A DNA stretch of 64,000 bases from positions 186,001-250,000 of the forward strand of contig JACRQG010000004.1 of assembly GCA_016222805.1 (NCBI GenBank), given 5' to 3'. Shown one piece after another: positions 36,616 to 60,047 of the stretch (its first letter is position 1; every line of letters starts with the position of its first letter). Under the pieces are notes generated by a model, which made no database searches, was not told where the DNA came from, and saw only the letters and a program-made list of their open reading frames with translations. The translations under genes were made by a program, and so were the position numbers. Source of the DNA: Verrucomicrobiota bacterium. Its GTDB lineage: Bacteria > Verrucomicrobiota > Verrucomicrobiia > Opitutales > Opitutaceae.

Positions 36616-36798
36616 GATGCGGGCACCGCGGGGTGGTCAGGGTGGAGCCGGCGGCGGTGGCGCGGGCTCCGGGAGGGTCAGGTTGGTACGCCCCCAGGGG
36701 CATGGCCAGCCTCGACTTGCCGGCGTGGACTCCGCGCGGGCGCGGCACCGGTTTGCCGCCTTTGGCGGGAGGCATCCACCGACCCGGCGCGGAGTCCC

Positions 36799-38361
36799 TC
36801 AGCCGGGATCCTCGTAGCCGGCAACGTCCACGCGGGGCGTTGGCGGAGGGATCGGAAGGCCGTACTTGCGGAAGAGCTCGTGAAACGCCGCCACCGTGGA
36901 GAAGCCGGGCTTGAAGTTGCCGAAGCGGTGGCCCTCGGCGATGAGCAGCGGGGTCCAGCCCCGCTGGTTCCGGGTATTCCACACCTCGAGTTTCGCTCCG
37001 CGCGCGTCGAGCAGCCGGACCACCTTGGGGAAGTTGGCGAAGGCGGCGCCGTGCATGGCCGTGTCGCCGTTCTTGGAAACGGCGTTGGGGTCGGCGCCCA
37101 GGGAGAGCAGGTATTCGACCGCCTCGCAGGCCTCGTCCTCGGTGCCGGCTTCCTCCTCGACCGAGCGGGTGCCGAGTCCGGCCGCCGCCATGAGCGGCGT
37201 GCAGGCGTCGACGTTGGTGAGAGTGGGATCCGCGCCGAGGGAGTGCAGCAGCCGGAGAAACGGTGTGTCGGCGGTATCGGCGGCCAGCAGGAAGGGCGTG
37301 CAGCCCTGCCGGGCGATGCGGCCGCCTCCCTTGGGGCCTCCGGTAAGGCGGCGGTTCACGTCGGCGCCGCACGCGACGAGTTTCCGGATGAGGGCGTCGC
37401 TGGTGTAGAGACCGGACCCGTCCGGCACCGGCTGGCCGTCATCCTCGCCGCTGTCGGGTTTGCGCACCCACGAGAGGATGTGCAGCGGCGCATAGCCGGA
37501 GCGCAGGTCGTTGGGATCGGCCCCGCGGTCGAGCAGCTCGGCGGCGAGTTCGAAGTGAGCGTTCTCGATCGCGATGACGAGCGCGCTGGTGCCCGGGCGC
37601 GGGCCTTTGCGGCCGGCAGCGCGGGCGGGTTTCGTCGCCTCGTGCAGGTCGGCCCCGGCGCGGAGGAGGGTGCGGACAACCTCCGTGCGTCCGGTCCGGG
37701 CGGCGAAAAGCAGCGGGGTGAAACCGGAATCGACGGCGGTGCGGAAGTCGGCGCCGGCGGCGATCAACGCGGCCACGACCGGGGCGTGCCCCTCATGCGC
37801 CGCCCACATCAGGGCGGTCTGGCCGCCGGCCGCAAGCCGGTCGTCGACGCGGGCGCCGCGCGAGAGCAGCAACTGCACCGTGTCGAGGTGCCCGGTGCGG
37901 GCGGCGGTCATGAGCGGGGTCTCGCCGCCGCGGAGCGCGGCGTTGGGATCGGCGCCGGCTTCCAACAGCAATCCGACGACGGCCGCGGAACCGCTCGCGC
38001 AGGCGAGGGAAAGCGGGGTGACGCCGTAGCGGTTTCGCGCCTTGGGATCGGCGTGGGCGGCAAGGAGCGCTCGCACGGCGGCCAGGTCGTCGTGGCGCGC
38101 GGCCCAATGGAGGGCGGTGGTGCCGTCGGCCTGCGCGGCGTTGACCGGCGCCGTGGCGATCAGGGACAGGACCGCGGATCCATCCCGGCGCTCGGCGGCG
38201 TCGGCCAGGAGGGCCGGCGCGGGCGATGGGATCGGCGGTTCCGCCGCGTCGAGCGCGAGCCCCAGTGAGGCGCAGGCGAGCCAGCGCCGGAGGCGGGCCA
38301 GGCGGAGCGGCGCGTTTCGCACGACCGGGACAGGGGGCGGCATGGAAGGACGGGAGCTCAC
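36799..38361 (-). CDS. Exported ankyrin-repeat protein
   Basis: This protein of about 520 residues starts at a GTG overlapping the stop of the DUF1552 gene (GTGA), or at the ATG at 38343. A leader-like segment (LRRWLACASLGLALDAA) is followed by about eleven ankyrin repeats covering residues 55-500. Clear copies include DGTTALHWAARHDDLAAVRAL, GGETPLMTAARTGHLDTVQLL, SGFTPLLFAARTGRTEVVRTL and NGDTAMHGAAFANFPKVVRLL. Ankyrin stacks bind proteins. Here the export signal and operon with a DUF1592 cytochrome and DUF1552 protein suggest a periplasmic scaffold for that pair. Ankyrin proteins recur beside such modules in Planctomycetes (general knowledge). Confidence 0.88.
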   Translation of the reverse strand: MSSRPSMPPPVPVVRNAPLRLARLRRWLACASLGLALDAAEPPIPSPAPALLADAAERRDGSAVLSLIATAPVNAAQADGTTALHWAARHDDLAAVRALLAAHADPKARNRYGVTPLSLACASGSAAVVGLLLEAGADPNAALRGGETPLMTAARTGHLDTVQLLLSRGARVDDRLAAGGQTALMWAAHEGHAPVVAALIAAGADFRTAVDSGFTPLLFAARTGRTEVVRTLLRAGADLHEATKPARAAGRKGPRPGTSALVIAIENAHFELAAELLDRGADPNDLRSGYAPLHILSWVRKPDSGEDDGQPVPDGSGLYTSDALIRKLVACGADVNRRLTGGPKGGGRIARQGCTPFLLAADTADTPFLRLLHSLGADPTLTNVDACTPLMAAAGLGTRSVEEEAGTEDEACEAVEYLLSLGADPNAVSKNGDTAMHGAAFANFPKVVRLLDARGAKLEVWNTRNQRGWTPLLIAEGHRFGNFKPGFSTVAAFHELFRKYGLPIPPPTPRVDVAGYEDPG

Positions 38362-46760: not shown

Positions 46761-49151
46761 ATGATCACGGTCCCGCTTCGCCGTCTGCTGCCGATCCTGC
46801 TGTTCGCCGGTGCGGCGGGCGTGGCGGTGCGTTGCGCCCGGGTGCCGGCACCCGCGGTGGTCACCGCGAAAGGGGAACATTTGTACCGGACGCAGTGCGC
46901 CGAGTGCCACGGCTCCCAGGGTCAGGGGGTCGAAGGCAAGTACGCGGGATCCCTCAGCGGCGATTGGCCGTTGCCGCGGTTGGCGCGGTACATCGAGCAG
47001 AATATGCCCGAGGACAGCCCGCAGCCGCTCTCCCCGGATCAAGCGCAGGCTGTCGCCGCGTATCTCTACGACGCGTTTTATTCCCGCGCGGCCCAGGCGA
47101 AACTGCGACCCGCGCGCCGGGAGCTTTCCCACCTCACCAACCGGCAGTACGCCGTCGCGGTGGCCGACCTCCTCCGGGAACTCGAGGGCGGCGAGCCCGT
47201 GCAGGGAGCGATCACCGGGACGCGCGGCCTGGCCGCCACCTATTACGGATCGGCCCAGCGCGGTCGCTTCGATTCGGGCCGGGTCGTGCAGCGCGGAGTG
47301 GATCCGGGCCTCGACGCGACCTTCGCGCCGGGCACCCCGGCCTGGGCTCGGGTGGGATCGGCGGAATTCTCGGCTCAGTGGCGCGGTTCGTTCCTGGCCG
47401 AGGAGACGGGCGAGTACGAGTTCATCGTCCGCACGCCGAACACCGTGCGCGTCTGGATCAACACCGAGCCCGGGAACCCCGCGGAGGCCACGCTGGACGT
47501 CAACGTTTCCAATCCCACCCATCCCGACCACCGCGTGACCGTCCGGCTGCTCGGCGGGCGTCGCTACCCGATCGCGATCGACTACTGGGCGCTGCCGGAA
47601 AAAGCCGGGGCGCCCCCGCCCGCGATCGCCCTGCGCTGGCGACCTCCCCTGGGTTCCGAGCAGCCGGTGCCGGCGCGCGTGCTTTCGCCGGAAACCGTGC
47701 GGCCGACCTTTGTGCTCGCCACGCGGTTTCCCGCCGATGACAGCAGCCATGGCTACGAGCGCGGCCTCGCGGTCTCCAAGGCCTGGGACGACGCCACCAC
47801 TCGCGCGGCCTTCGAGGTGTCCGGCCATGTCGCCCGGCGTCTCGACCGCCTCGCGGGCACGCGGCCCGGGGATCCGGAGCGGGCCCGGAAGATCGAGGCG
47901 TTTGCGGTCCGGCTGGTGACGACGGCCTTTCGCCGGCCGCTTTCTGCCGAGGAGACGCAACGCTACGTCGGAGAGATCTTCCAGCGCGCGCCGGAGACCG
48001 CGACCGCGGTGCGGCGCGTGGTCCTGCTGGCGCTGAAGTCGCCGCCGTTCCTCTACGGGGATCTGCCGCCAGCTGGCGACTCGGCCCCGGGCCGTGCCGC
48101 GCGACTGGCGCTCGGCCTGTGGGATTCACTGCCGGACCGGGCGTTGACCGAGGCGGCGGCCGCCGGGCGGTTGGACAACCGAGCCGAAGTGGCGGCGCAG
48201 GCCGAGCGCATGCTCGGCGATCCGCGGGCCCGGGCGAAGCTGCGCGAATTCTTCCATGTCTGGCTGCAACTGCGCTACGTGGAGGACCTGCGGAAGGACC
48301 CGGCGCGCTTCCCGGAATTCACGCCGGAGATCATCGACGACCTGCGCACCTCGCTGAACCTCTTTCTCGACGACGTGGCATGGGGGGGGGCGGGGGATTT
48401 CCGGGAACTGCTGCGCGCCGACTACCTCCACGCCAATGCGCGGCTGGCGCGGTTCTACGGTCTGGACGCCGCGGCGGTCGGGGAGGATTTCGTGCGCGTG
48501 CCGGCTCCGACGGGGGAGCGGGCGGGGGTGATCACCCACCCGTACGTGCTGGCCGCCCTGTCCTATCCGAAATCGAGCTCGCCCATCCACCGCGGCGTTT
48601 TCCTCACGCGAAGCATCGTGGGCCGGGCGCTGCGATCGCCGTCCGTGGCGGTGGCGTTCAACGACGAGGAGTTCGCCCCCGGGATGTCGATGCGCGAGAA
48701 GGTGGAGAAGCTCACCCGGGGGGAGAATTGCATGGGCTGCCACGCGATCATCAATCCGCTCGGCTTCAGCCTCGAGTGGTACGATGCGACCGGGCGCTTT
48801 CGCCGCTCCGACGGCGGCCGGCCGATCGAGGCGGAGAGTAGTTACGTGCTGGAGGACGAGCGGGTGGTGCGCCTCAGCGGGGCGCGGGAGGTCGCGGAGC
48901 TGGCCGTGACGAGCGAGCAGTCAGCCGAGGCGTTCATCGAGCAGCTTTTTCATCACGTCGTGAAGCAACCCGTGCTCGCCTACGGCCCCGACACCCTCCC
49001 GGCGCTGCGCCGCTCCTTCGTCGCCTCCGGCTGGAACCTCCGCCGCCTGCTGGTCGAGATCGCCACGCTGGCGGCGCTGCCTCCCGCGACCCTCCCGGCC
49101 TCGGCGCCCGCTTCCTTCGCGGCTTCGTCCGTCACCCCTTCCCACCCATGA
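46761..49151 (+). CDS. PA14-containing DUF1592-type c-type cytochrome
   Basis: This 796-residue protein starts at an ATG with a leader (LLPILLFAGAAGVAVRC). A first heme motif, CAECH, lies at 46-50 in a small cytochrome c domain. Residues 120-150 start the DUF1587-like region (ELSHLTNRQYAVAVADLL), which is interrupted by a PA14 beta-domain at about 156-308 (GLAATYYGSAQ, ETGEYEFIVRTPNTVRVWI). After it come the DUF1595/1592 blocks (TAFRRPLSAEETQRYV, LALGLWDSLPDRALTEAA) and the DUF1588 block with heme motif CMGCH at 657-661. PA14 probably binds a glycan. A run of nine G at 48382-48390 lies inside the coding sequence. The stop overlaps the DUF1552 start (ATGA). Confidence 0.9.
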   Translation: MITVPLRRLLPILLFAGAAGVAVRCARVPAPAVVTAKGEHLYRTQCAECHGSQGQGVEGKYAGSLSGDWPLPRLARYIEQNMPEDSPQPLSPDQAQAVAAYLYDAFYSRAAQAKLRPARRELSHLTNRQYAVAVADLLRELEGGEPVQGAITGTRGLAATYYGSAQRGRFDSGRVVQRGVDPGLDATFAPGTPAWARVGSAEFSAQWRGSFLAEETGEYEFIVRTPNTVRVWINTEPGNPAEATLDVNVSNPTHPDHRVTVRLLGGRRYPIAIDYWALPEKAGAPPPAIALRWRPPLGSEQPVPARVLSPETVRPTFVLATRFPADDSSHGYERGLAVSKAWDDATTRAAFEVSGHVARRLDRLAGTRPGDPERARKIEAFAVRLVTTAFRRPLSAEETQRYVGEIFQRAPETATAVRRVVLLALKSPPFLYGDLPPAGDSAPGRAARLALGLWDSLPDRALTEAAAAGRLDNRAEVAAQAERMLGDPRARAKLREFFHVWLQLRYVEDLRKDPARFPEFTPEIIDDLRTSLNLFLDDVAWGGAGDFRELLRADYLHANARLARFYGLDAAAVGEDFVRVPAPTGERAGVITHPYVLAALSYPKSSSPIHRGVFLTRSIVGRALRSPSVAVAFNDEEFAPGMSMREKVEKLTRGENCMGCHAIINPLGFSLEWYDATGRFRRSDGGRPIEAESSYVLEDERVVRLSGAREVAELAVTSEQSAEAFIEQLFHHVVKQPVLAYGPDTLPALRRSFVASGWNLRRLLVEIATLAALPPATLPASAPASFAASSVTPSHP

Positions 49152-50464
49152 CCCCGATCCTTCGTCGTACGTTTCTCCGGCAGGCCGGCCTTTCCGCCGC
49201 GGTGCTGCCGTTTGTCGCCGGCCTGCCCAGCCTCGGCCTGGCGGCACCGGCGCGACCGCGCCAGCTACTGGTGGTGGTGTTTTCCCCCAACGGCACGATC
49301 CCGACCGCCTTCTGGCCGGACCAGGCCGGCCGCGACTTCGTCCTCAAGGAGATTCTGCAACCGCTGGCTCCGTTTCGGGATCGCCTGCTGACCCTGCAGG
49401 GGATCTCCAACCGGGTGCGCGGCGATGGGGACGGCCACATGCGCGGCATGAGCTGCCTGCTCACCGGCATCGAGCTCTTGCCGGGCAACATCCAGGGTGG
49501 CGGCAAGTCGATTCCGGCGGGATGGGCGGGCGGGATCTCGATCGATCAGGAGATCCGCAATTTCTTCCAGAGCCAGCCGGCAACGCGGACCCGTTTCGGT
49601 TCGTTGGAGTTTGGCGTCGGCGTGCAGGATCGGGCGGATCCGTGGACGCGGATGTCGTATGCCGGGCCGGGCAAGCCCGTGGCGCCCATTTCCGATCCCT
49701 ACCAGATGTACGAGCGGCTCTACGGCCAGGTGCGGGATCGGGAGCACCTGCGGAGTGTCCTCGATCCCCTGAAGGAGGAACTGGCGAAGGTGCGCCGGCT
49801 GGTGAGCGCCGAGGATCGGCGCGTGCTCGAGGAGCACGAGACGATGGTGCGGACGCTGGAGCGTGAGCTCAACGACCCGGCGGCGCAGGCGCTGCGCGCG
49901 CAGCCTCCGTCGCTCGAGGGGGGCGTTGCGGATCAGAACGACAATGTGCCGCGCCTCAGCCGCATGCAGGTCGACCTGATGGTGAATTGCTTCGCCAACG
50001 ACATGGCCCGGGTCGCGACCCTGCAGTACACCAAGTCGGTCGGTGGCGCGCGCATGAATTGGCTGTCCATTTCCGACGGTCACCACGGCCTCTCGCATGA
50101 ACCCGACAGCGACACGGCGGCGCAGGAGAAGCTGATCAAGATCAATACCTGGTTTGCCGGCGAGGTGCGCTATCTCGCCGAGCGCCTGGCCGCGACCCCG
50201 GAGCCGGATGGCGAGGGCTCCTTGCTTGATCACACGCTGATCGTCTGGACCAACGAGCTCGGCAAGGGGAACACGCACACCCTGGACAACATCCCCTTCG
50301 TGCTGCTCGGCGGCGGTTTCGGCTTCCAGATGGGGCGGGCGCTGAAGTTCGACAAGGTGCCGCACAACCGCTTGCACCTGGCGCTCGCGCACGCGGTCGG
50401 CCATCGGATCCCGGTGTTCGGCAAACCCGACTTCTGTTCGGCGGGACCGCTCGATCTCGCCTGA
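49148..50464 (+). CDS. DUF1552 secreted protein (second copy)
   Basis: This 438-residue protein starts at an ATG that overlaps the previous stop (ATGA), which implies translational coupling to the PA14 cytochrome. The leader is Tat-like (RRTFLRQAGLSAAVLPFVAGL). Landmarks shared with the other copy are LLVVVFSPNGTIPTAFWPD in place of the MPMGCD motif, HMRGMSCLLTG, DGHHGLSHEPDSD and NELGKGNTHTLDNIPFVLLGGG. It is clearly a paralogue of the 38358-39716 protein, but divergent, so the two modules are probably not a recent duplication. The cytochrome plus DUF1552 pairing suggests they work as a complex. Confidence 0.9.
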   Translation: MTPILRRTFLRQAGLSAAVLPFVAGLPSLGLAAPARPRQLLVVVFSPNGTIPTAFWPDQAGRDFVLKEILQPLAPFRDRLLTLQGISNRVRGDGDGHMRGMSCLLTGIELLPGNIQGGGKSIPAGWAGGISIDQEIRNFFQSQPATRTRFGSLEFGVGVQDRADPWTRMSYAGPGKPVAPISDPYQMYERLYGQVRDREHLRSVLDPLKEELAKVRRLVSAEDRRVLEEHETMVRTLERELNDPAAQALRAQPPSLEGGVADQNDNVPRLSRMQVDLMVNCFANDMARVATLQYTKSVGGARMNWLSISDGHHGLSHEPDSDTAAQEKLIKINTWFAGEVRYLAERLAATPEPDGEGSLLDHTLIVWTNELGKGNTHTLDNIPFVLLGGGFGFQMGRALKFDKVPHNRLHLALAHAVGHRIPVFGKPDFCSAGPLDLA

Positions 50465-50511: not shown

Positions 50512-52245
50512 TCAGAACGCGGCCGTCATCTCCTGGAGATGACCGGGCTCGAGGATCTGTTCGCCGAGGGAGGTGCACTCCTGGGCGTCGTTCTTGTACA
50601 GCTTGAAGCGGATCGGACCGGTCGCCTCGTTGGTTTCCCAGCGCCACTTGCCGATGGAGACGAATTGCAGGGGCACGCCCTTCTCCCAGCTCAGGCCGGG
50701 CCCATCCCCGCGGATGAAGAGCCGGTTGCCGATCCCGATGTAAGCCGTGGCGAGGAGGCGGGTCGCGCCGTCCGATGCCAGCGTGCGCTCGATGGTGCCG
50801 GGCGCGGCGGCGGGCGGGACTTCATCGAGGACCAGGTCCAGCGAGGGCTCGGGCGGCGCGTCCGTCTTCCGCGGAGAGCGCTTCTTCGGAGCCGGGGTCG
50901 GCGGAGGTTCGGCAGGCGGTTCCGCGGAGGGCGGTTCGGCGGCCGGCGGCGGTGCCACTGCAGCCGGGGGTTCCTCGGCCGGAGGGGGAGCGGACTTGTT
51001 CTGGAACGGATCCGCGGTGTCGGGAGCGACGGGCGCCACCTCGGGGATCTGGGCGGAAGGCAGGGGAACCGGCTCGGGCGCGGATTCCTGGGCGGGTTCC
51101 GGAGTTGCGGTCGGCGCTGGCGTTTCCTCGACCGGCGCGGGGGCTTCCGCGGGGGCGTGGGTTTCTTCGCGGCGGGTCCGGCGCTGCCGCTTCGGCGGTG
51201 CGGCGGTGGGCTCGGCGGCCGGAGTCGCGGGAGGCGCTTCGGGAACGGGAGTGGACTCGGGGGTCGGAGGTGGCGCGGGAGACGTGTCTTCGGCGGGCTT
51301 GGGCGGCTCGGCCGGTACGGCGGCGGCGGGAAACGGGAAGGCCGGCACGGTCTGCGCGGTGGATTCCAGTCGGCGGGCCGCACTCTCGAGCTGCTCCAGA
51401 CGCTGTTCGAGCGTGCGCAGGGCCGAGGTCACGGCCTGGCGGAACTCCTCCGTGGCCTGCTGGGTCGCGGCCGACGACGCCTGGACGAGCCGGCGCTCGA
51501 ACTCGCCGAGCTTGGCTTCGAAGGCGGCGACGGTCGCCGCCTGGGCCGTGGCGAGGGACTGCGTGGCGTGACGCTCCGCCTCAGAGAGGGCGCGGGTCGC
51601 GGCGGTGCGGGCCTCGGCAATCGCGTCGGCCTGCGCCTTGGCGATCGCGGCGGCGGTTCCAGCCGGGAGCTTGGCCACGGCGTCGGTCGCGGCGGCGAGG
51701 TGCTGCGCCGAGGCGCTCTCGAGCTTGGCGAGGTCGGCGGCGGTCTTGGTAATCTTGGTGGCGATGGTCTCGAGCCGCTCGCTCTCGCTCGCGCGCAGCT
51801 CGTTCAGCTCCTTCTCCATCTCCTCCTTCTCCGCGTCGTTGGTCTCGGCGAGATGGGCCTGAAACTCGGCGATCTTCTCCTGGAGCTTGTGCGGCAGGTG
51901 CTCCATGTGCCGGAGGTTCTTCTGCGCGACCTCGGCGATGTCGTGCAGGCTGCCGGTGGCGATGCTGATCTGTTCGGCCGACGCGCTCACCGTGCGCGCC
52001 AGTCCCTCGAGGGCCCGCTGGCGATCGTCGAGCTGCTCGTTCTTCTGGCGTTCGAAGCGAACCACCAGCGGGACCAGGCCGACGAGGGCGCCGAGGCCGA
52101 CGCAGCCGACGATGGCCAGGATCGCGGGGGAGGAGAGCGGCTGGGCGCTGCGCAGGGCGATGGCCATGGCGGCGCCGACCAGCGCGAGATCCGTGACGAC
52201 GAAGAGCCAGGTCGGCAGGCCGGTTCGGTTTTCGGAAGTGTTCAT
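50512..52245 (-). CDS. Membrane-anchored coiled-coil protein with Pro/Glu linker and possible starch-binding C-terminus
   Basis: This 577-residue protein starts at an ATG. Two membrane helices lie near the N-terminus (WLFVVTDLALVGAAMAIAL and ILAIVGCVGLGALVGLVPLVV), then about 220 residues of charged heptads (EKEEMEKELNELRASESERLE, TAATRALSEAERHATQSLA) predicted to be coiled coil. A linker of about 170 residues very rich in Pro, Ala and Glu follows. The last 90 or so residues are compact (RLFIRGDGPGLSWEKGVPL, GKWRWETNEATGPIRFKLY) and resemble a CBM20/CBM48-type carbohydrate-binding fold, but this is by eye. Overall it looks like an RmuC- or methyl-accepting-type scaffold that reaches away from the membrane. 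No family name is certain. Confidence 0.75.
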   Translation of the reverse strand: MNTSENRTGLPTWLFVVTDLALVGAAMAIALRSAQPLSSPAILAIVGCVGLGALVGLVPLVVRFERQKNEQLDDRQRALEGLARTVSASAEQISIATGSLHDIAEVAQKNLRHMEHLPHKLQEKIAEFQAHLAETNDAEKEEMEKELNELRASESERLETIATKITKTAADLAKLESASAQHLAAATDAVAKLPAGTAAAIAKAQADAIAEARTAATRALSEAERHATQSLATAQAATVAAFEAKLGEFERRLVQASSAATQQATEEFRQAVTSALRTLEQRLEQLESAARRLESTAQTVPAFPFPAAAVPAEPPKPAEDTSPAPPPTPESTPVPEAPPATPAAEPTAAPPKRQRRTRREETHAPAEAPAPVEETPAPTATPEPAQESAPEPVPLPSAQIPEVAPVAPDTADPFQNKSAPPPAEEPPAAVAPPPAAEPPSAEPPAEPPPTPAPKKRSPRKTDAPPEPSLDLVLDEVPPAAAPGTIERTLASDGATRLLATAYIGIGNRLFIRGDGPGLSWEKGVPLQFVSIGKWRWETNEATGPIRFKLYKNDAQECTSLGEQILEPGHLQEMTAAF

Positions 52246-52690: not shown

Positions 52691-53164
52691 TCAAAACCGC
52701 CGCCACGCCATCACGCTCAGCGACAGCAGGAGGCCGATGCGAATCGCGCCCTCGAAAGTGAGGATGACGAGCACCCATTTCAGGCCGCTCCCGCGGCGGA
52801 GCGAAAAACCGATCATCGTCACCACGATCAGCGCCAGTCCATGGACGCGGCCGAAGGTCGGCACGAGCAGCAGCACCATCCACGCCCAGTAGATCAGCAG
52901 CAGCGTGCTCCAGAAGAAGGCCGTCACCTCGCCCAGCCCGAGGGTTCGGGGATCGGCGCCGCGGGCGATCTGCTTGATGCCCAGGTAACGCTCGCTCAGG
53001 ACGAGTTGCCAGACCTCGAAGACGAGGAACAGCGGCGCGGCCAGGACGAGGGTGAGCACGGGCGCAACTGAACGGCCTTGCTCCCCGTTGGCAACGCCGG
53101 AGCCCGGCTCCTGCCTGCTTGCGCGGCGGCGTTTTTCTGGCGGAATGGGCCCGCCCCGCCCCAT
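52691..53164 (-). CDS. Small integral membrane protein, function unknown
   Basis: This protein has about 157 residues from the ATG at 53164. GTG starts at 53182 or 53059 are alternatives; the last begins right at the first helix and avoids overlap with the divergent acyltransferase gene. Four hydrophobic segments are visible: LTLVLAAPLFLVFEVWQLVL, FWSTLLLIYWAWMVLLLVP, LALIVVTMIGFSL and LVILTFEGAIRIGLLLSLSVM. No motif is recognised. Its start overlaps or abuts the PlsC/NlpC-P60 fusion gene on the other strand, suggesting shared control. This makes it a candidate partner of that lipid-related protein (inference). Confidence 0.6.
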   Translation of the reverse strand: MGRGGPIPPEKRRRASRQEPGSGVANGEQGRSVAPVLTLVLAAPLFLVFEVWQLVLSERYLGIKQIARGADPRTLGLGEVTAFFWSTLLLIYWAWMVLLLVPTFGRVHGLALIVVTMIGFSLRRGSGLKWVLVILTFEGAIRIGLLLSLSVMAWRRF

Positions 53165-56087
53165 GCCTTCCGCGGAAAACACCGGCCTGCTCCGAGCCCT
53201 CGTGCGCGGGTGGGTGAAGGTCTATTACCCCCGCATCGAGGTCACGGGGGGCGAGCTGATTCCGCGGACCGGCCCGGTGCTGCTCGCCGCCAACCACCCC
53301 AACTCCCTGATCGATCCGGTGCTGCTCGGCATCGCCGCCGGCCGCCCGGTGCGGCTGATGGCCAAGGCTCCCCTGTTCGACATTCCGGTGTTCGGCGCGG
53401 CGTTGCGGGCGGCCGGGATGGTGCCGGCGTATCGGGGAACCGACGACAGCCGGCAGGTGACCCGGAACCTCGAGTCCCTGGCCGCGGCGGCGCGGCAGCT
53501 GCGCGAAGGCGTGGTGATGGGCATCTTTCCCGAGGGGCGGAGCCATGATGCCCCGCAGCTGGCGCTGGTGCGCTCGGGGGCGGCCCGGCTGGCGATGGCG
53601 GCGGTGCAGCAGGGGGCGCCGGGCCTGCAGGTGGTGCCGGTCGGAATCAACTACGAGCGCAAGGAGCGCTTTCGCACCGCGGTCTGGATCAAGGTGGGCC
53701 GGCCGATCCACGCGGAGAACTGGCTGCGCCAGCATGGGGGCGACGAGCACCGGGCCATGCGGGCGCTCACCCAGGAGCTGGATGCCCGGTTGCGGCACTG
53801 CGTCGTGCATCTCAACGACGCGGCCTGGGAGCCGCTGCTCGGGGATGTGGAGGCGCTGCTGCCGCCGCCCCCGGGAGTGCGGGGATGGCTCGGGCGCGTG
53901 CGCGCCGGCGCCACCCTGGCGACCCTGCACCGGCGCAAGCGGGCGGCGGACGCCATCAATCATTTCCAGCAGGCCGATCCGGAGCGGGCCGCCGCGGCGG
54001 CCCGTCGTGTCGCGGCGCATGCGGCGGCGCTTCGCGAAGCAGGCGTCGCGGCGGATGCCCGGGTACTGGCGTGGCGCGGGCCGGCCCTCGCCGCGGTGAT
54101 GCTGCGGGATGGACTGGGCATGGCGCTGGCGGCGATCGGCTGCCTGCCCGGGCTCCTGCATCACCTGCTCCCGTACGCGCTCGTGCGCCTGGTGGCGGGC
54201 CGGCTGGAGGGATCCGGCCGGATGGTGGTCGCACTCACGCGCCTCGGCCTGAGCCTTCCGATTTACGCGGCCTGGTACGCCTTCGTCTGGTGGCGGCTCA
54301 GTCTCTACTTCCTGCCCTGGGTGGCGTGGACCTGGGTGCTGGCCATGCCACTGGCCGGAGTGCTGGCGCTGGCGTGGATCCGCGGGTTGAGGCGGACGGC
54401 CCCGTTGTGGTGGGCCGAGGCGAGGTTGCTCCGGGATCGCCGCCGCGCCGAGACCCTGCGGCAGGAACACGCCGCCGTCGGGCGGTTGCTGGAGCAGTTC
54501 GCCTCGGAGGCGAAGCTGCCGCTGGCCGCCTCCGCGCCGCGTTCCACCGGCGTGGTCTACCGGCCGCCGCTGTGGTCCTCCGCGCTGCTGGGCGGGGTGG
54601 CCGCCGCCGTGGTGCTGGCGCTGGGTGCGTGGCTGCTGCGGGATCGCCCGATCGAGTTCCTCCGGCAGGAGGCCCCGGCCCTGTCGGAGGAGAGGCCGGG
54701 CGAGCTGGCGGAGCGGATGGAGGCCGATGAGCGGGCCGTCGTGGCCGTGATCGGCGGGCTGGCGGAATTGGAGGCCCGGTTTCGCCGGTTCGAGGCGGCG
54801 CTGGCACTCGGCGAGCGCAGCTACTACCGGCCGGAGGACGACGACGAGATCCGCCGCATGCTCGTGAGTTTCCTTTCCTACCGGTCCGCGCTGCTCCGCA
54901 CGGTCTGGCATTACCAGCGGCACGACGAACTCACCGGGGAGCGCGAGCGGCTGCGCGCGCTGCTGCTCCACTATGCCTCGGCGGCGGTGGCTTATGACTA
55001 CGCCGCGCGGTTCGTCCTGGCTTTTGACGGCAAGGCAAACGCGATCCGCAAGCTGAACGAGGCGGAGCCGCGGTGGGACCTGGCGGCCGGCACCTACGAC
55101 ACCATCCGCGCCAATCTCGGCCATGTGGCCCACCGGCGCTGGCTCGAAGCCGGCTGGGCCAACTACCACGCCACGGTGACCCGGTGGCAGGCGTGCGGCC
55201 TGTACGCGGACGAGCCGCACGCGACGCTGCACCGGGCGATTGTGGTGGCCGGGGAGAACACCGCCCGGCTGGCGGAGCGCCTGCTGCACTACAAGTTCGC
55301 GACCGCGGCGGCCGACCTGGAGAAATTCGCCCGCGGCGGCTGGTACCGGGCGAGCTCCGTGGTCTCGACGCTGATCGGGGATACGCGGATTCGGGCGCCC
55401 CGCCAGGGGACGGCGCTAATTACCCCGGAACTCCTGGCGACCGTGCGGCCGCGGCTGCAGCCCGGCGACATCGTGATCGAGCGGCGCAATTGGTACCTCT
55501 CGAACGCCTTTCTGCCCGGTTACTGGCCGCATTCCGCCCTGTACATCGGAACGGTCGCCGAATTGCGGGCGCTGGGCCTCGACCGGGATCCGCGCGTGGC
55601 GCGGCACCTGGAGGCCCTTGGGCGGCCCGATGCCGCCGGCCACCCGCGCGTGATCCTCGAGGCCGTCAGCGAGGGGGTGGTCTTTTCCAGCGTCGAGCAC
55701 TCGATCGGGGAGGCCGACTCGGTGGCCGTGCTGCGGCCGCGCCTGACCCTGGAACAACGGCGCGAGGTGCTGGCCCGGGCCTTCAGCCACGCCGGCAAGC
55801 CGTACGACTTCGACTTCGATTTCTTCAGCGGCGACAAGCTGGTCTGCACGGAGCTCGTGTACCGCGCCTGCGGGAGTTTCCTCGATTTTCCGCTCGTCCC
55901 GATCCTCGGCCGGCAAACCCTGCCCGCGCTGGAGATCGTGCGCCATTGGGCCTCGCCGGTGGGCGCCCCACAGCTCGAGTTCGTCGCCTTTCTCGACGGC
56001 GACGAGCGCTCCGGCACCTGCGTCGCGCGCGGGCCGGAAGCGCTGCGCGAGACCCTCACGCGCCCGGCCCTGACCTGGCGGCAGTGA
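53163..56087 (+). CDS. Fusion of PlsC-type acyltransferase and permuted NlpC/P60 (YiiX-like) hydrolase
   Basis: From the ATG at 53163 (or 53145) the protein has 974 residues. The N-terminal 210 residues are a PlsC/LPLAT domain: LLAANHPNSLIDP with His45 and Asp51 (HX5D rather than HX4D), the GIFPEGRSHD block with FPEG at 122-125, and VVPVGINYERKERF. Residues 300-500 hold several membrane helices (YAAWYAFVWWRLSLYFL, LWSSALLGGVAAAVVLALG). The middle is helical. The last 200 residues match the circularly permuted NlpC/P60 or YiiX/LRAT-like fold: PGDIVIERRNWYLSNAF, WPHSALYIG with His790, and LVCTELVYRACG with Cys895. Both domain families act on acyl groups, so it may transfer or remove acyl chains at the inner membrane. 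Confidence 0.88.
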   Translation: MPSAENTGLLRALVRGWVKVYYPRIEVTGGELIPRTGPVLLAANHPNSLIDPVLLGIAAGRPVRLMAKAPLFDIPVFGAALRAAGMVPAYRGTDDSRQVTRNLESLAAAARQLREGVVMGIFPEGRSHDAPQLALVRSGAARLAMAAVQQGAPGLQVVPVGINYERKERFRTAVWIKVGRPIHAENWLRQHGGDEHRAMRALTQELDARLRHCVVHLNDAAWEPLLGDVEALLPPPPGVRGWLGRVRAGATLATLHRRKRAADAINHFQQADPERAAAAARRVAAHAAALREAGVAADARVLAWRGPALAAVMLRDGLGMALAAIGCLPGLLHHLLPYALVRLVAGRLEGSGRMVVALTRLGLSLPIYAAWYAFVWWRLSLYFLPWVAWTWVLAMPLAGVLALAWIRGLRRTAPLWWAEARLLRDRRRAETLRQEHAAVGRLLEQFASEAKLPLAASAPRSTGVVYRPPLWSSALLGGVAAAVVLALGAWLLRDRPIEFLRQEAPALSEERPGELAERMEADERAVVAVIGGLAELEARFRRFEAALALGERSYYRPEDDDEIRRMLVSFLSYRSALLRTVWHYQRHDELTGERERLRALLLHYASAAVAYDYAARFVLAFDGKANAIRKLNEAEPRWDLAAGTYDTIRANLGHVAHRRWLEAGWANYHATVTRWQACGLYADEPHATLHRAIVVAGENTARLAERLLHYKFATAAADLEKFARGGWYRASSVVSTLIGDTRIRAPRQGTALITPELLATVRPRLQPGDIVIERRNWYLSNAFLPGYWPHSALYIGTVAELRALGLDRDPRVARHLEALGRPDAAGHPRVILEAVSEGVVFSSVEHSIGEADSVAVLRPRLTLEQRREVLARAFSHAGKPYDFDFDFFSGDKLVCTELVYRACGSFLDFPLVPILGRQTLPALEIVRHWASPVGAPQLEFVAFLDGDERSGTCVARGPEALRETLTRPALTWRQ

Positions 56088-56097
56088 GGGTGGGCAG

Positions 56098-56135
56098 ATG
56101 ACACCGATTTCATTTTCGCGACAGGATGGTGTCAT
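56098..56135. promoter_or_regulatory. Inverted repeat ATGACACC-N22-GGTGTCAT upstream of cytochrome gene
   Basis: Perfect 8-bp arms (56098-56105 and 56128-56135) are separated by 22 AT-richer bases, just upstream of the cytochrome ATG at 56159. Arm spacing of about three helical turns fits a dimeric operator or a hairpin between genes. Which one is not decided. Confidence 0.4.
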
Positions 56136-56158
56136 TTCCGGGTGGTAGAATTACCCCC

Positions 56159-56518
56159 ATGACTCAGCCCACCGCCCCCGCGTTACGTCGGCGGGGCGCC
56201 GCCCCGCACGATGTGGTGGCCGCCCTTGCCCTTGGCCTTGTCCCACTCGCCGGTTCCGCTGCCACGCCTCCGGGCCAGTTGCTCGCCTCCCAGTGCGCCC
56301 AGTGCCACGGCACCAACGGCCAGGCGGTGTCCGGCTTCGAGTCGATCCGGGGCAAGAGCGCCAGCGACATGTACAAGACGCTGGTCGAGATGAAAAACCG
56401 GCCGGCGGAGAACATCATGGATCGGCAGGCGCGCGGCTATACCGACGCCCAGCTGCGCCTGATCGCCGAGTACCTTGCCAAGCTCCCGACCACGGCCAGT
56501 GCCCTCCCGGAGAAGTGA
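56159..56518 (+). CDS. Monoheme c-type cytochrome (FccA/SoxE-like)
   Basis: The ATG at 56159 gives 119 residues: a leader with a basic n-region (ALRRRGAAPHDVVAALALGLVPLAGSA) and one heme site, CAQCH, at 46-50. Later Met residues (ASDMYKTLVEMKNRP, NIMDRQ) offer an axial ligand, as in class I cytochromes. A short hairpin related to the GCGGGGC repeats (56191-56207) lies within the leader codons. The next gene, 23 nt downstream, is the flavoprotein of a flavocytochrome c sulfide dehydrogenase. The pair is thus the likely cytochrome and flavin subunits; classical FccA is diheme, and monoheme forms occur in SoxEF. Confidence 0.85.
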   Translation: MTQPTAPALRRRGAAPHDVVAALALGLVPLAGSAATPPGQLLASQCAQCHGTNGQAVSGFESIRGKSASDMYKTLVEMKNRPAENIMDRQARGYTDAQLRLIAEYLAKLPTTASALPEK

Positions 56519-56541
56519 ACCACCCTCAACCCGATTTTCGG

Positions 56542-57792
56542 ATGAACCGACGAAATTTCCTTCAGCTTGCTGGTCTCGCTTCCGCCTCCTTCGCCCTGCC
56601 CCGCGCCGTCCGTGCGGCCACCGCCGCGCCCCGCGTCGTGGTGGTGGGCGGTGGCTTTGCCGGGGCCACCGTCGCCAAGTACCTCCGCCTGTGGGGCGGC
56701 AACATCGACGTCACGCTGATCGACCGCAACGCCGAGCACTACGCGTGCATTCTCTCCAACCTCGTGGTCACCGGGCAGCTGGCGATGAGCCGAATCCGGC
56801 TGGGCTATGACAGCCTGCGCACCGGGCGCGGGGTCAAGGTCGTGCAGGCCGAGGTCGTCGAGGTGAATCCGGCGGAGCGGTGCGTGGTGGTGCAGGATGC
56901 GACCGGGTTCCGGGCGTATCCGTACGAGCGGTTGGTGCTCGCGCCCGGAATCGAGTTCACGCCCGCGGCCGGGTCCTACAGCGCCGAGTTGACCCCGCAT
57001 GCCTGGAAGGCGGGCCCCCAGACGCTGCTGTTGAAGCAGCAACTGTCGGCGATGACCTCCCGCGGGACGTTCGTGATGACCATCCCGAAGTCGCCCTACC
57101 GTTGCCCACCAGGGCCCTACGAGCGGGCCTGCGTGGTGGCCGACTACCTCAAGCGCAAGAAGCCGGGAGCGAAGGTCGTCGTCCTTGACGCCAACACGAG
57201 CATCCAGGCCGAGCCGCTGACGTTTGATCGCGCGTTCAAGGAAACCTATCGTGGCATGCTGACCTATGTCACGGGCGCCGAGGTCACCGGCGTGGTTTCA
57301 GCGGAACGGCGGGTGCTCACCACGCAGGGCAGCTTCACGGGGACCGTCCTCAACTACATTCCGAACCAGCGGGCCGGCGACATCGTCACCCAGGCCGGCC
57401 TGGTGAATGATCCGAGCGGGCGCTGGGCCCTGGTGAATCCGCTGACCTACGCCTCCGTGGTCAATCCCGAGATCCACATCCTCGGGGATTCGCAGGGCAC
57501 CGGCCAACCGAAGTCCGGGCACATGGCGAACTCCCAGGCCAAGGTTTGCGCCGATGCCATCATCCGGGCGTTCAATGGCGAGGGTCCGGATCCGGCACCG
57601 ACGACCAGTTCGGCGTGCTTCAGCCCGATCACGTCGACGAAAGCCTCCTGGTTGAGCGCCTCCTTCCAATATGATCCCGGCACGGCCGCGATGAAGCGCG
57701 TCGATCTCGGCGAGGCGCACGAGCCGACCTCGGACGGTTTCCAGCAGATGTACCAGTGGGCGGACAACATCTTCGCGGATTCGTTCGTGTAG
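56542..57792 (+). CDS. Flavocytochrome c sulfide dehydrogenase-like flavoprotein (FccB/SoxF)
   Basis: The ATG at 56542 gives 416 residues; the longer frame is a shadow of the cytochrome gene. The leader is Tat-type (NRRNFLQLAGLASASFAL). The FAD site VVVVGGGFAGATVAKYL is followed by HYACILSN, where Cys69 aligns with the cysteine that binds FAD covalently in FccB. The redox pair is Cys188 (SPYRCPPGPYERA) and Cys336 (ANSQAKVCADAI), as in the FccB active site. It would oxidise sulfide to polysulfide in the periplasm and pass electrons to the partner cytochrome. In this apparent heterotroph the role may be sulfide detoxification rather than lithotrophy (inference). Confidence 0.9.
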   Translation: MNRRNFLQLAGLASASFALPRAVRAATAAPRVVVVGGGFAGATVAKYLRLWGGNIDVTLIDRNAEHYACILSNLVVTGQLAMSRIRLGYDSLRTGRGVKVVQAEVVEVNPAERCVVVQDATGFRAYPYERLVLAPGIEFTPAAGSYSAELTPHAWKAGPQTLLLKQQLSAMTSRGTFVMTIPKSPYRCPPGPYERACVVADYLKRKKPGAKVVVLDANTSIQAEPLTFDRAFKETYRGMLTYVTGAEVTGVVSAERRVLTTQGSFTGTVLNYIPNQRAGDIVTQAGLVNDPSGRWALVNPLTYASVVNPEIHILGDSQGTGQPKSGHMANSQAKVCADAIIRAFNGEGPDPAPTTSSACFSPITSTKASWLSASFQYDPGTAAMKRVDLGEAHEPTSDGFQQMYQWADNIFADSFV

Positions 57793-57987: not shown

Positions 57988-58662
57988 ATGCGCATCCTGA
58001 TTGCCGAAGACGAAAGAAAGGTGGCCGCCCATATTCGAAATACTTTGCGGCAGCATGGCTTCACCGTCGACGTCGTGCACCGCGGCGACGAGGCGCTGGA
58101 GATGGCGCAACTGGCTCCCTACGACACCCTGGTCCTCGACGTCATGATGCCCGGGCGCGATGGCCTCAGCGTGCTGCGGCTCCTGCGGGAACGCAGGATT
58201 ACGACCCCGATCCTCCTGCTCACCGCACGCGGGGAGGTTTCGGAACGCGTGGAGGGGCTGCGTCTTGGCGCCGATGATTACCTCGCGAAGCCCTTTGCCC
58301 TGGAGGAACTGGTCGCCCGCGTGGAGGCGCTGACCCGCCGGGCGAGCGGCCGGGGGCTGACAGTGCTGCAGACGGCGGATCTGGTGATGAACCTGGTTTC
58401 CCGCGAGGTCACGCGCGCGGGGCGGCGCATCGAACTCCACCCGCGGGAGTACGCGCTGCTGGAGTGCCTGCTGCAATCACCGGGCCGGGTGCTGACCCGT
58501 GCCCAGATCATCGAGCGGGTGTGGGACTACCACTTCGACACGGGCACCAACGTGGTGGACGTCTACGTGCAGCGCCTGCGCCGGAAGATCGACGATGATT
58601 TCGAGCCGAAGCTCCTCCAGACGGTCCGGGGCATCGGCTACGTCCTGCGGCCCTCCGGATGA
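57988..58662 (+). CDS. OmpR-family response regulator
   Basis: This 224-residue protein starts at an ATG. The receiver domain (1-115) has the acidic pocket EDE at 7-9, phospho-acceptor Asp51 (LVLDVMMPGRDG) and Lys101 (YLAKPFALEEL). The C-terminal winged helix is of OmpR/PhoB type (ELHPREYALLECLLQSPGRVLTRAQIIERVWDY, split here as two motifs; VDVYVQRLRRKIDDD). It overlaps the sensor kinase gene by the ATGA at 58659-58662. The signal and targets are unknown; its nearest neighbour upstream is the sulfide dehydrogenase pair. Confidence 0.95.
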   Translation: MRILIAEDERKVAAHIRNTLRQHGFTVDVVHRGDEALEMAQLAPYDTLVLDVMMPGRDGLSVLRLLRERRITTPILLLTARGEVSERVEGLRLGADDYLAKPFALEELVARVEALTRRASGRGLTVLQTADLVMNLVSREVTRAGRRIELHPREYALLECLLQSPGRVLTRAQIIERVWDYHFDTGTNVVDVYVQRLRRKIDDDFEPKLLQTVRGIGYVLRPSG

Positions 58663-60047
58663 ACGGCTCCCTCACGCTGGAGCGGCGGGTCACGGTGTGG
58701 TCGGCCGTCGTGGTGGCCTGCTCCCTCTTCGTCTGCGGCGGAGGTGGCGCCTGGTTTCTCTACCACCAGGAGGTGGCGCAGCTGGATCGAAGGCTGCAAC
58801 AGGTGGCGGCGCAGTTCTTCGAGCAGCGGCGGTTGCACGGCGGGGCCGTTTTCGATCTGGGCAACCAGCACGAGATCATGGAGTGGCTGCCGGCTCCGGG
58901 CTCGGAGGTCGTGGTGGAGGTCGAGCAAGGAGGAAGGATCTACTTCCGATCGCCACGCCTGGGGTCGGGTCAACTGCCGCGTGACTTTGCCGGGTTCCGT
59001 TATCTCGAGCTGCCAATCGGGCGGATGCGGGCGGGGGCGGTACAGGAGGAAGGGATCACCCTGCGGATTGCGGCGCCGACCCAGCCGCTGGATGAGCTGC
59101 TGGGCAACCTGGTGCTGGTCTTTGCCGCCGGGTTTCCCCTCATGCTCGGCTTTGTGGTGGTGGGTGGCCGGGCGATCGCCCGCCAGGCGCTGGTGCCGGT
59201 CCGGCGCATCGCCGACACCGCCGAGCAGATCACCTCCCAACGGTTCGACCGGCGCGTGCCGGTACCGGATCCCCCGGATGAGATCCGACGGCTGGCGCTG
59301 GTGTTGAACACCACGTTCGATCGCCTGGAGGGCAGCTATCGGCAGGCGCAGCATTTCAGCGCCGACGCGTCGCACGAGTTGAAGACGCCGCTCACCCTCG
59401 TGCACGCCGAGCTGGAAGCACTGCTTGCCTCGCCCCATCTGGTGGAAGCGGATCGCGCGGCGGTGGCCAATGCCCTCGAGTCCGCCAAGCGGTTGGGTTC
59501 CATCACCACCAGCCTTCTGCTGCTGGCGCAGGCGGATGCCGGCCGGCTGCAGTTGGACCTGGAGACGCTGGATCTCGCCGAGGTCGTGCGCGACTGCCTT
59601 GACGATGCCCGAATCCTCGCCGACGCGGCCGGACTGGCCCTGCAGACCACCCTGCCTGATTCCCTGTCCGTGCGCGGCGACGCCACCCGGCTGCGGCAGA
59701 TCATCTGCAACCTCATGCACAATGCCGTGAAGTACAATCAGGCCGGGGGCTGGGTGGGGCTGCGGTTGGCGGAGCAGGGAGCCGAGGGGTGGCTGGAAGT
59801 GGCCAACTCTGGTCCGGGCATCCCCGCGGCGCATGCTCCCTATGTGTTCGATCGGTTTTACCGGGCGGAGCATCATGCGGCCGTGGCAGGCCACGGCCTG
59901 GGACTGGCCATCGCTCGCGAGTTGAGCCGGGCCCACGGCGGTCGGTTGGAGCTGATCCGATCCGACTCCGCCGAGACGGTCTTCCGCCTCACGCTGCCGT
60001 TGGTCGCAGGGAGCGCGCCGAGCCGTCCGCAGCCGCCGAACCGATGA
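58659..60047 (+). CDS. Sensor histidine kinase (HAMP-type)
   Basis: This 462-residue protein starts at an ATG that overlaps the regulator's stop. Two membrane helices (AVVVACSLFVCGGGGAWFL at 17-35 and LVLVFAAGFPLMLGFVVVGG at 151-170) bracket a periplasmic sensor of about 115 residues. A HAMP linker follows, then the H-box ASHELKTPLTLVHAE with His239, the N-box IICNLMHNAVKYNQ with Asn355, and the G-boxes VANSGPGIP and GHGLGLAIARELSRAHGG. The architecture matches heavy-metal or envelope-stress kinases such as the CusS class. The small sensor domain gives no clue to the ligand. Confidence 0.95.
   Translation: MNGSLTLERRVTVWSAVVVACSLFVCGGGGAWFLYHQEVAQLDRRLQQVAAQFFEQRRLHGGAVFDLGNQHEIMEWLPAPGSEVVVEVEQGGRIYFRSPRLGSGQLPRDFAGFRYLELPIGRMRAGAVQEEGITLRIAAPTQPLDELLGNLVLVFAAGFPLMLGFVVVGGRAIARQALVPVRRIADTAEQITSQRFDRRVPVPDPPDEIRRLALVLNTTFDRLEGSYRQAQHFSADASHELKTPLTLVHAELEALLASPHLVEADRAAVANALESAKRLGSITTSLLLLAQADAGRLQLDLETLDLAEVVRDCLDDARILADAAGLALQTTLPDSLSVRGDATRLRQIICNLMHNAVKYNQAGGWVGLRLAEQGAEGWLEVANSGPGIPAAHAPYVFDRFYRAEHHAAVAGHGLGLAIARELSRAHGGRLELIRSDSAETVFRLTLPLVAGSAPSRPQPPNR

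Follow-up and report, generated by a model that had tools for sequence, protein, structure and literature searches.

A PlsC-type acyltransferase fused to a YaeF/YiiX-like C92 domain in Verrucomicrobiota and Planctomycetota

What might a protein do that carries an acyltransferase at one end and a permuted papain-like thiol enzyme at the other, and do its two active sites face the same side of the membrane? The question is raised by an open reading frame (ORF) in a 64,000-nucleotide stretch of the genome of a Verrucomicrobiota bacterium (Opitutaceae; assembly GCA_016222805.1, contig JACRQG010000004.1, positions 186,001 to 250,000), which we refer to as the window. The ORF occupies positions 53163–56087 of the + strand, begins with ATG and encodes 974 amino acids (aa), with an acyltransferase and a Peptidase_C92 (C92) domain in a single frame; an in-frame GTG at 53052 offers an alternative upstream start that no domain needs. 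The original prediction, made from the DNA letters, had described a PlsC acyltransferase joined to a permuted NlpC/P60 hydrolase of the YiiX/LRAT-like type, a shared scaffold that would add and remove acyl chains or shuttle them through a single Cys intermediate. We found that the protein is a conserved two-enzyme fusion, in which both folds and both conserved catalytic sets are held together in one family, and its sequence suggests that the acyltransferase probably lies in the cytosol and the C92 domain in the periplasm.

Two enzyme folds in one reading frame

Two Pfam families exceeded their cut-offs in the protein: PF01553 (Acyltransferase) at residues 24–162 (E = 3.6e-22; 79 bits against a cut-off of 23) and PF05708 (Peptidase_C92) at residues 765–903 (E = 3.2e-14; 53.8 bits against a cut-off of 27). 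No other Pfam family scored above cut-off, and NCBIfam returned sub-threshold matches only. The motifs that the original prediction had pointed out were located at NHPNSLIDP (H45), FPEG (122–125), WPHSALYIG (H790) and LVCTELVYRACG (C895), the His preceding the Cys in the C-terminal domain as it had said, and hydropathy bore out its membrane helices, at about 318–336, 369–406 and 474–492. AlphaFold modelled the whole protein with a mean predicted local distance difference test score (pLDDT) of 87.4 and a predicted template modelling score (pTM) of 0.64, and the C-terminal half (C-half) alone with a pLDDT of 92.1 and a pTM of 0.86; structural comparison of the two ends, which had been proposed as a check, gave PlsC (5kym) for the N-terminal half (N-half) and YiiX (2if6) for the C92 part. 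The features of the gene are collected in Table 1.

Table 1 Coordinates in the window of the fusion gene and of its domains, motifs and catalytic residues, with the basis of each assignment.
Feature	Position	Strand	Basis
Whole fusion gene: HX5D acyltransferase, membrane region, helical domain and C92 domain	53163..56087	+	ORF, Pfam, AlphaFold
PlsC-type acyltransferase domain, residues 24-162	53232..53648	+	PF01553, Foldseek
Catalytic motif I, NHPNSLID (H45, D51), with HX5D spacing	53292..53315	+	Alignment of fusion rows
Motif III, FPEG, residues 122-125	53526..53537	+	25/25 rows with these columns, of 26
Membrane region: probably re-entrant helix 306-347, then a helical hairpin (353-382 / 385-408)	54078..54386	+	Predicted helices, hydropathy, positive flanks
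Last membrane helix, 470-492, at the place of the signal/anchor in stand-alone C-halves	54570..54638	+	Hydropathy, model, C-half comparison; outside the stand-alone N-half of G229
Helical domain, residues 505-740, without a Pfam family; conserved KLNE (630-633)	54675..55382	+	C-half model (pLDDT 92.1), conservation
C92 (YaeF/YiiX) permuted papain-like domain, residues 763-946	55449..56000	+	PF05708, VIA-align
Catalytic His790	55530..55532	+	25/25 fusion rows with the column; invariant in 41-row alignment
Glu833, third (polar) triad residue, putative counterpart of YiiX Glu64	55659..55661	+	Invariant in 41-row alignment; catalytic set given in PMC3142127
Tyr881, counterpart of YiiX Tyr115	55803..55805	+	Invariant in 41-row alignment; aligned to PYDF of YiiX
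Catalytic Cys895	55845..55847	+	25/25 fusion rows; invariant in 41-row alignment

A scan of public genome contigs returned 65 related loci, and the ORF at each was scored with four home-made profiles covering the acyltransferase (residues 1–225), the membrane part (226–500), the helical domain (505–735) and the C92 domain (736–974). Acyltransferase and C92 domain lay within a single open frame at 24 of the 65 loci, three of which (L034, L035 and L050) are clipped by a contig end or start late. One locus (L042) holds the same fusion interrupted by one stop, another (L058) holds broken pieces of the C-half only, and 39 hold the C-half without the acyltransferase, 7 of them in ORFs clipped by the contig start. 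Assigned by record titles or by the lineage labels of the tree, the 24 fusion loci comprise 13 Verrucomicrobiota (mostly Opitutaceae), 10 Planctomycetota and one record titled Deltaproteobacteria; in G169, a complete single-contig genome, the fusion is a 1062-aa ORF. The original prediction had suggested such a survey, given that two separate genes might have been joined by a sequencing error. That objection fails: the one-frame fusion at 24 of 65 loci, together with the single-contig G169, rules out a sequencing or assembly artefact, in favour of which nothing was found and to which we give practically no credence.

Sampling 387 genomes of the window's phylum, we found the C-half in 46 (E ≤ 1e-20), mostly as a stand-alone protein of about 440–610 aa, and the N-half in 7 (E ≤ 1e-25), namely three fusions, one stand-alone N-half (G229) and three matches to the acyltransferase part only. 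The fusion gene is patchy: the window's own genome has one copy, and among 26 other genomes of its genus only G014 has the gene, split across two contigs. Distances between N-halves correlate with those between C-halves (r = 0.89, 300 pairs), and mean identity was 0.54 for the C92 part, which is the best conserved, 0.48 for the acyltransferase and 0.30 for the loosely conserved membrane part. In quick trees, assessed by the Shimodaira–Hasegawa-like approximate likelihood ratio test (SH-aLRT) only, 28 fusion rows formed one side of a branch with 86% support, which falls below the tool's starred level of 95, after removal of four rows (L117, L120, L124 and L132) that belong to a long-branched group; the fusion group then needs one change, and over all 80 tree rows it needs two. 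In these trees L042 was counted as a broken fusion and L102, which represents part of the fusion gene of the window itself, was dropped; duplicate loci, L110, L111 and L116 (the same genes as L134–L136) and C92 pieces shorter than 180 residues were left out ahead of the count.

By family profile and by fold, the N-half belongs to the superfamily of PlsC, glycerol-3-phosphate acyltransferases (GPATs) and lysophospholipid acyltransferases. Foldseek matched its model to PlsC of Thermotoga (5kym, E = 4.1e-5) and to the squash GPAT (1k30, E = 7.5e-5), with a probability of 1.00. Aligned with 25 relatives, of which 24 are intact and one is broken, the window protein gives 26 rows; H45 and D51 occur in all 23 that have these columns, and five residues separate His from Asp (HX5D) in 23 of the 23 rows with the motif; the ordinary PlsC loci of the relatives read HX4D in 23 of 27 cases, the other four giving no pattern. 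Motif III takes the extended form FPEGxSHD in 11 of 24 fusion rows (FPEGRSHD in the window protein) as against 0 of 23 matched PlsC loci. The acyltransferase fold and FPEG are thus shared with PlsC, a lysophosphatidic acid acyltransferase (5kym), and with plant GPATs (1k30, 1iuq), but the fusion carries HX5D in place of the HX4D of PlsC, which sets it apart from PlsC and the acylglycerol-phosphate acyltransferases (AGPATs) proper, and has a membrane hairpin and a C92 half in addition. Judged by its motifs, the N-half is an acyltransferase of the HX5D kind, as in fungal GPATs and SalA, and not of the HX4D kind. HX5D and FPEGGSHD mark fungal GPATs, FPEGGSHD being invariant in the larger group, GPAT-A (PMC4207751), and HX5D in fungal GPATs is also given elsewhere (PMC7613133). 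The fusion is likened to the fungal enzymes Sct1 and Gpt2 by motif only, and the available parts of the same two papers mention no C92 half; SalA shares HX5D, again with no C92 half mentioned in the part of its description at hand (PMC8319176).

The C92 half groups with the YaeF/YiiX enzymes by family profile, by the permuted His-Glu-Tyr-Cys order and by fold, which upholds the predicted NlpC/P60-like nature of the C-terminal region. VIA-align matched the C92 part to YiiX (2if6; Z 15.4, root-mean-square deviation 1.9 over 146 residues) and to BcPPNE (3kw0; Z 12.4); YiiX was absent among the 50 matches listed by plain Foldseek and was seen only in the second look with VIA-align. H790, E833, Y881 and C895 are invariant across 41 C-halves, and with W788 they are kept in 25 of 25 fusion rows with these columns. 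YiiX and BcPPNE likewise have His, Glu, Tyr and Cys as their four catalytic residues (PMC3142127, section 8), the PYDF motif is shared, and a fatty acid was tentatively modelled at the catalytic site of YiiX, contacted by Tyr115 (PMC3142127, section 10). The match is to the wider family: the YiiX equivalog NF007458 scored 19.6 bits against 216, the distance from His to Glu is 43 residues here and 15 in YaeF/YiiX as numbered in PMC3142127, and here the C92 domain ends a 974-residue membrane protein, after a helical domain that matches no Pfam family. The comparison with YiiX thus stood, whereas that with LRAT did not: the catalytic triad of LRAT is Cys-His-His, with His as third residue (PMC10318531), and since this residue is the invariant Glu833 in our proteins, the C-terminal domain is of the YaeF/YiiX (C92) type and not LRAT-like.

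The functions of YiiX-type C92 proteins have been called unknown or poorly understood (PMC3142127; PMC7387801), and C92 enzymes are termed lipid amidases in a classification paper (PMC10318531). Other permuted NlpC/P60 proteins likewise take part in acyl-chain chemistry: the toxin Tox-Act1 cleaves phosphatidylglycerol and phosphatidylethanolamine and Lnb is an enzyme of lipoprotein N-acylation in Bacteroides (PMC12994826), while LnsA is required for lipoprotein N-acylation in Staphylococcus, where it acts with LnsB (PMC7387801). Lnb and Tox-Act1 form clades apart from YiiX in the published tree (PMC12994826), and LnsA has LnsB, a separate membrane protein, as its partner and not a PlsC domain (PMC7387801). 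Pfam searched at E up to 1 returned neither DUF4105 (the family of Lnb) nor any other permuted family for the 974-aa protein; a distant relation of the C-half to Lnb may nonetheless exist. For the helical domain (505–740), plain Foldseek on the C-half gave no match at E ≤ 0.001, and the VIA-align rows (syntaxin, 14-3-3 and designed bundles, Z up to 10.5) are within the chance range for long helices, so that no fold is claimed. The window's own genome also encodes a second, different C92 protein of 504 aa on another contig (G000:C34:63371-63904; L103:880-2394).

Membrane placement and partners of the C92 module

Charges flanking the hydrophobic helices give an indication of topology. Averaged over up to 26 fusion rows, the loops at 338–366 (4.3 Lys/Arg, 1.3 Asp/Glu) and 407–473 (13.8 and 6.6) are net positive, and the stretches at 493–530 (4.3 and 7.3) and 736–974 (26.2 and 34.0) are net negative, a pattern consistent with a first helix that re-enters, a hairpin at 353–408 and a last helix that leads outward. 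This last helix (470–492) seems to belong to the C-half, because in the stand-alone N-half of G229, a protein of 475 aa, the profile match stops at residue 453, ahead of it. Furthermore, a strongly hydrophobic stretch occurs at the expected signal or anchor site in 44 of 60 scored stand-alone C-halves, ending lipobox-like in L056 and L057. The cut-off for such a stretch (a mean of 1.5 over 15 residues) was set after the scores were known; because each ORF was taken from one stop codon to the next, some stretches may precede the true start, and Myxococcus strains that are almost identical account for several rows. Outside the 60 stand five pieces, from four loci, that are too short and five proteins of a leucine-rich-repeat group that were scored at the wrong place; three of these five proteins show an N-terminal hydrophobic stretch. 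The loop charges, the 44 hydrophobic N-termini and the end of the G229 N-half together argue that the membrane separates the two active sites.

Beyond the acyltransferase, the C92 module is tied to a second kind of lipid enzyme. A CDP-alcohol phosphatidyltransferase and a C92 domain are found by Pfam in the same protein in G344 (L108:136-2922) and G347 (L113:397-2922), and by domain profile a CDP-alcohol phosphatidyltransferase is encoded directly upstream of the C92 module at L112, L114, L115 and L118 and further upstream, with a DUF3187 gene in between, at L134, L135 and L136. The pairing thus holds in nine of 11 genomes (fused in two, directly beside in four, one gene away in three), which were chosen, not blindly sampled, for high-scoring matches to C-halves that stand alone or lack PlsC, six of them being known positives already; in the other two the C92 gene has a neighbour of UbiA type (L109/L138) or of esterase type (L107/L137). 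When the profile was run over 124 loci it marked 14, which represent the same nine genomes, and no CDP-alcohol phosphatidyltransferase appeared at any other of the 124, which span 1.5 to 6 kb on each side at best. Three of the phosphatidyltransferases compared with NCBIfam had archaetidylinositol-phosphate and phosphatidylinositol-phosphate synthases as best names, below cut-off. Because the C92 domains of the nine genomes form one clade (99%), a separate verrucomicrobial lineage apart from the acyltransferase fusions, the two ties of the module to phospholipid synthesis look independent.

Other arrangements were also observed. At L091, L094 and L095, in records titled Deltaproteobacteria, Syntrophaceae and Oligoflexia, leucine-rich repeats precede the C92 domain; L092 and L093, titled Smithella, group with these, L093 being clipped at its start and showing no repeats. 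The C92 protein of L070, titled Comamonas sp. KCTC 72670, falls within the Myxococcus branch of the tree, which may mean that the record is mistitled or that its contig is foreign.

Candidate activity of the fusion

One explanation for these observations, on which our judgement is evenly poised, is that the protein is an inner-membrane, two-module glycerolipid acyl enzyme that works as a remodelling unit across both membrane faces; its opposite-side topology, its lipid substrates and the remodelling cycle are the parts of this scheme that we infer. The cytosolic N-half would acylate a glycerolipid precursor, helix 470–492 would take the polypeptide across to the periplasm, and the helical domain and the C92 thiol enzyme would sit at the outer leaflet. 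There Cys895 would accept an acyl chain from a lipid ester or amide as a thioester and pass it to water, in the manner of a phospholipase A or lipid amidase, or to another acceptor, in the manner of a transacylase. Lnt and LplT/Aas make up a lysolipid cycle, and deacylation or acyl transfer outside, coupled with a supply of acylated lipid inside, could be a single-chain analogue of it. More doubtful, and put forward tentatively, is the wider idea that in Verrucomicrobiota and neighbouring groups the helical and C92 module assists phospholipid synthases of the inner membrane from the periplasmic side. Paired in one case with an acyltransferase and in the other with a CDP-alcohol phosphatidyltransferase, it would edit new lipid that has arrived at the outer leaflet, transferring an acyl chain to or from it via Cys895, and would yield undescribed acyl-modified or lyso lipids.

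The likeliest acceptor of the N-half would be glycerol-3-phosphate and the next a lysolipid, a ranking drawn from the HX5D mark of fungal GPATs and from FPEGRSHD, but tempered on two counts. FPEGxSHD is not kept in 13 of the 24 fusion rows, and HX5D is also found in SalA, a bacterial aminolipid acyltransferase that is not a GPAT (PMC8319176). These two facts weigh against the scheme of a two-sided glycerolipid enzyme, as do several others. The best NCBIfam match of the N-half, the AGPAT subfamily TIGR00530, reached 60 bits against a cut-off of 102.95 and an Aas-like model came next, so that lysolipid substrates are as open as glycerol-3-phosphate. Of the 27 genomes searched, which are the window's own, those of L042 and L058 and the 24 that carry the fusion intact, 23 have the acyltransferase PlsY (all but G057, G063, G069 and G070), and an extra GPAT is thus not needed. 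The patchy distribution noted above means that the fusion gene has no core function, and no constant neighbouring gene family backs any pathway. As to topology, 16 of the 60 stand-alone C-halves lack a hydrophobic N-terminus and some relatives may be cytosolic; a full crossing by helix 306–347, if it occurred, would give four crossings and leave both halves in the cytosol; and the AlphaFold model assigns no membrane side, its pTM of 0.64 saying little about the mutual placement of the halves. On account of those 16 proteins and the possible fourth crossing, we hold the opposite-side placement to be probable and no firmer.

Three points speak for the shared scaffold of the original prediction, in which both active sites are cytosolic, the PlsC half adding acyl chains and Cys895 of the C92 half removing or shuttling them: both sites are conserved within one chain, four hydrophobic helices would return the C-half to the cytosol, and the 16 relatives would be at home there. 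We nevertheless think this arrangement unlikely, as the bias of the loop charges, the signal or anchor stretch in 44 of 60 stand-alone C-halves and a last helix that seems to be the C-half's own, the G229 N-half ending before it, all point away from a single Cys intermediate serving both reactions on one side; for the same loop charges and stand-alone C-halves, two acyl reactions on opposite leaflets are favoured. A periplasmic C-half would also suit a lipoprotein N-acyltransferase of the Lnb or LnsA sort, with the PlsC half reacylating the leftover lysolipid, and permuted NlpC/P60 enzymes do perform or serve N-acylation in Bacteroides (PMC12994826) and Staphylococcus (PMC7387801). This is rather unlikely given that Pfam at E up to 1 pointed to no other permuted family and that Lnt exceeded its curated cut-off in the window's own genome and in 25 of the 27 genomes overall, which is no pattern of replacement; the exceptions are G065, with a partial match below cut-off, and G069 (2.3 Mb), with none. 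With Lnt in 25 and PlsY in 23 of the 27 genomes, the fusion was ruled out as a replacement for either.

Two further proposals shift the emphasis to one half of the protein. As canonical NlpC/P60 enzymes act on peptidoglycan (PMC3142127), the C-half could be a cell-wall amidase or peptidase for which the acyltransferase half is merely a membrane anchor or a regulatory part, but a plain anchor would not hold His45, Asp51 and FPEG invariant and the C92 module is tied twice to phospholipid-synthesis enzymes, which makes this proposal quite improbable. Alternatively, the attachment of the module to two unrelated phospholipid-synthesis enzymes, and to leucine-rich repeats, could mean that the C92 half senses membrane lipid composition, or regulates it, for the lipid synthase to which it is attached, with cleavage secondary; the invariance of all four catalytic residues tells against it, and we consider it very improbable.

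Returning to the two-sided acyl enzyme, such a protein would, if real, offer a simple coupling of lipid synthesis inside with lipid remodelling outside. The C92 domain, joined with one enzyme of phospholipid synthesis in a single protein and, separately, either joined with or encoded close to another, gives a direct hint to the substrates of its family, and the fusion is a good lead to membrane remodelling in some bacteria. Both kinds of enzyme are known. In the open-licence papers that the searches listed we recognised neither their joining, nor its spread over several phyla, nor the layout on opposite sides that we propose, nor the second partner, and no description of a PlsC–C92 or CDP-alcohol phosphatidyltransferase–C92 protein, although absence from print is not thereby shown.

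Genomic surroundings

A conserved operon was not apparent around the fusion. Among the 25 commonest of 101 matched neighbour families none occurred in more than five proteins (CinA) and none was a lipid-synthesis family; the scan covered 74 of 88 neighbour proteins at 24 loci, with genes called by a crude home-made rule by which small genes may be missed. The original prediction had drawn attention to a small membrane protein whose gene starts head-to-head with that of the fusion. Its position is as described (ORF 52691-53182, - strand, its first GTG overlapping the start of the fusion gene), but it is not a conserved partner, since relatives occur at only two of the 65 loci, L032 and L039, which are close relatives and likewise have it on the strand opposite to the fusion, upstream of it. 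Neither Rfam nor a tRNA scan found anything in the window, and between 52500 and 56600 there were no promoter-like sites (0.3 in shuffles) and two terminator-like sites (1.7 in shuffles), both uninformative numbers.

Several other genes of the window were also noted. A 1273-aa open frame at 34447-38268 (+), with no Pfam match at E ≤ 0.001, may be either a real gene or a shadow frame. Upstream of the fusion, a gene pair at 46761-50464 (+) encodes a cytochrome c/PA14/DUF1592 protein and a DUF1552 (HXXSHH) protein, and 50512-52245 (-) encodes a protein of 577 residues with a hydrophobic stretch at its N-terminus and a long region rich in Pro and Ala, for which no Pfam or NCBIfam family scored above cut-off. 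Downstream, a cytochrome c gene is followed by one for a flavoprotein resembling flavocytochrome c sulfide dehydrogenase (56126-57792, +), after which a response regulator and a histidine kinase are encoded at 57988-60047.

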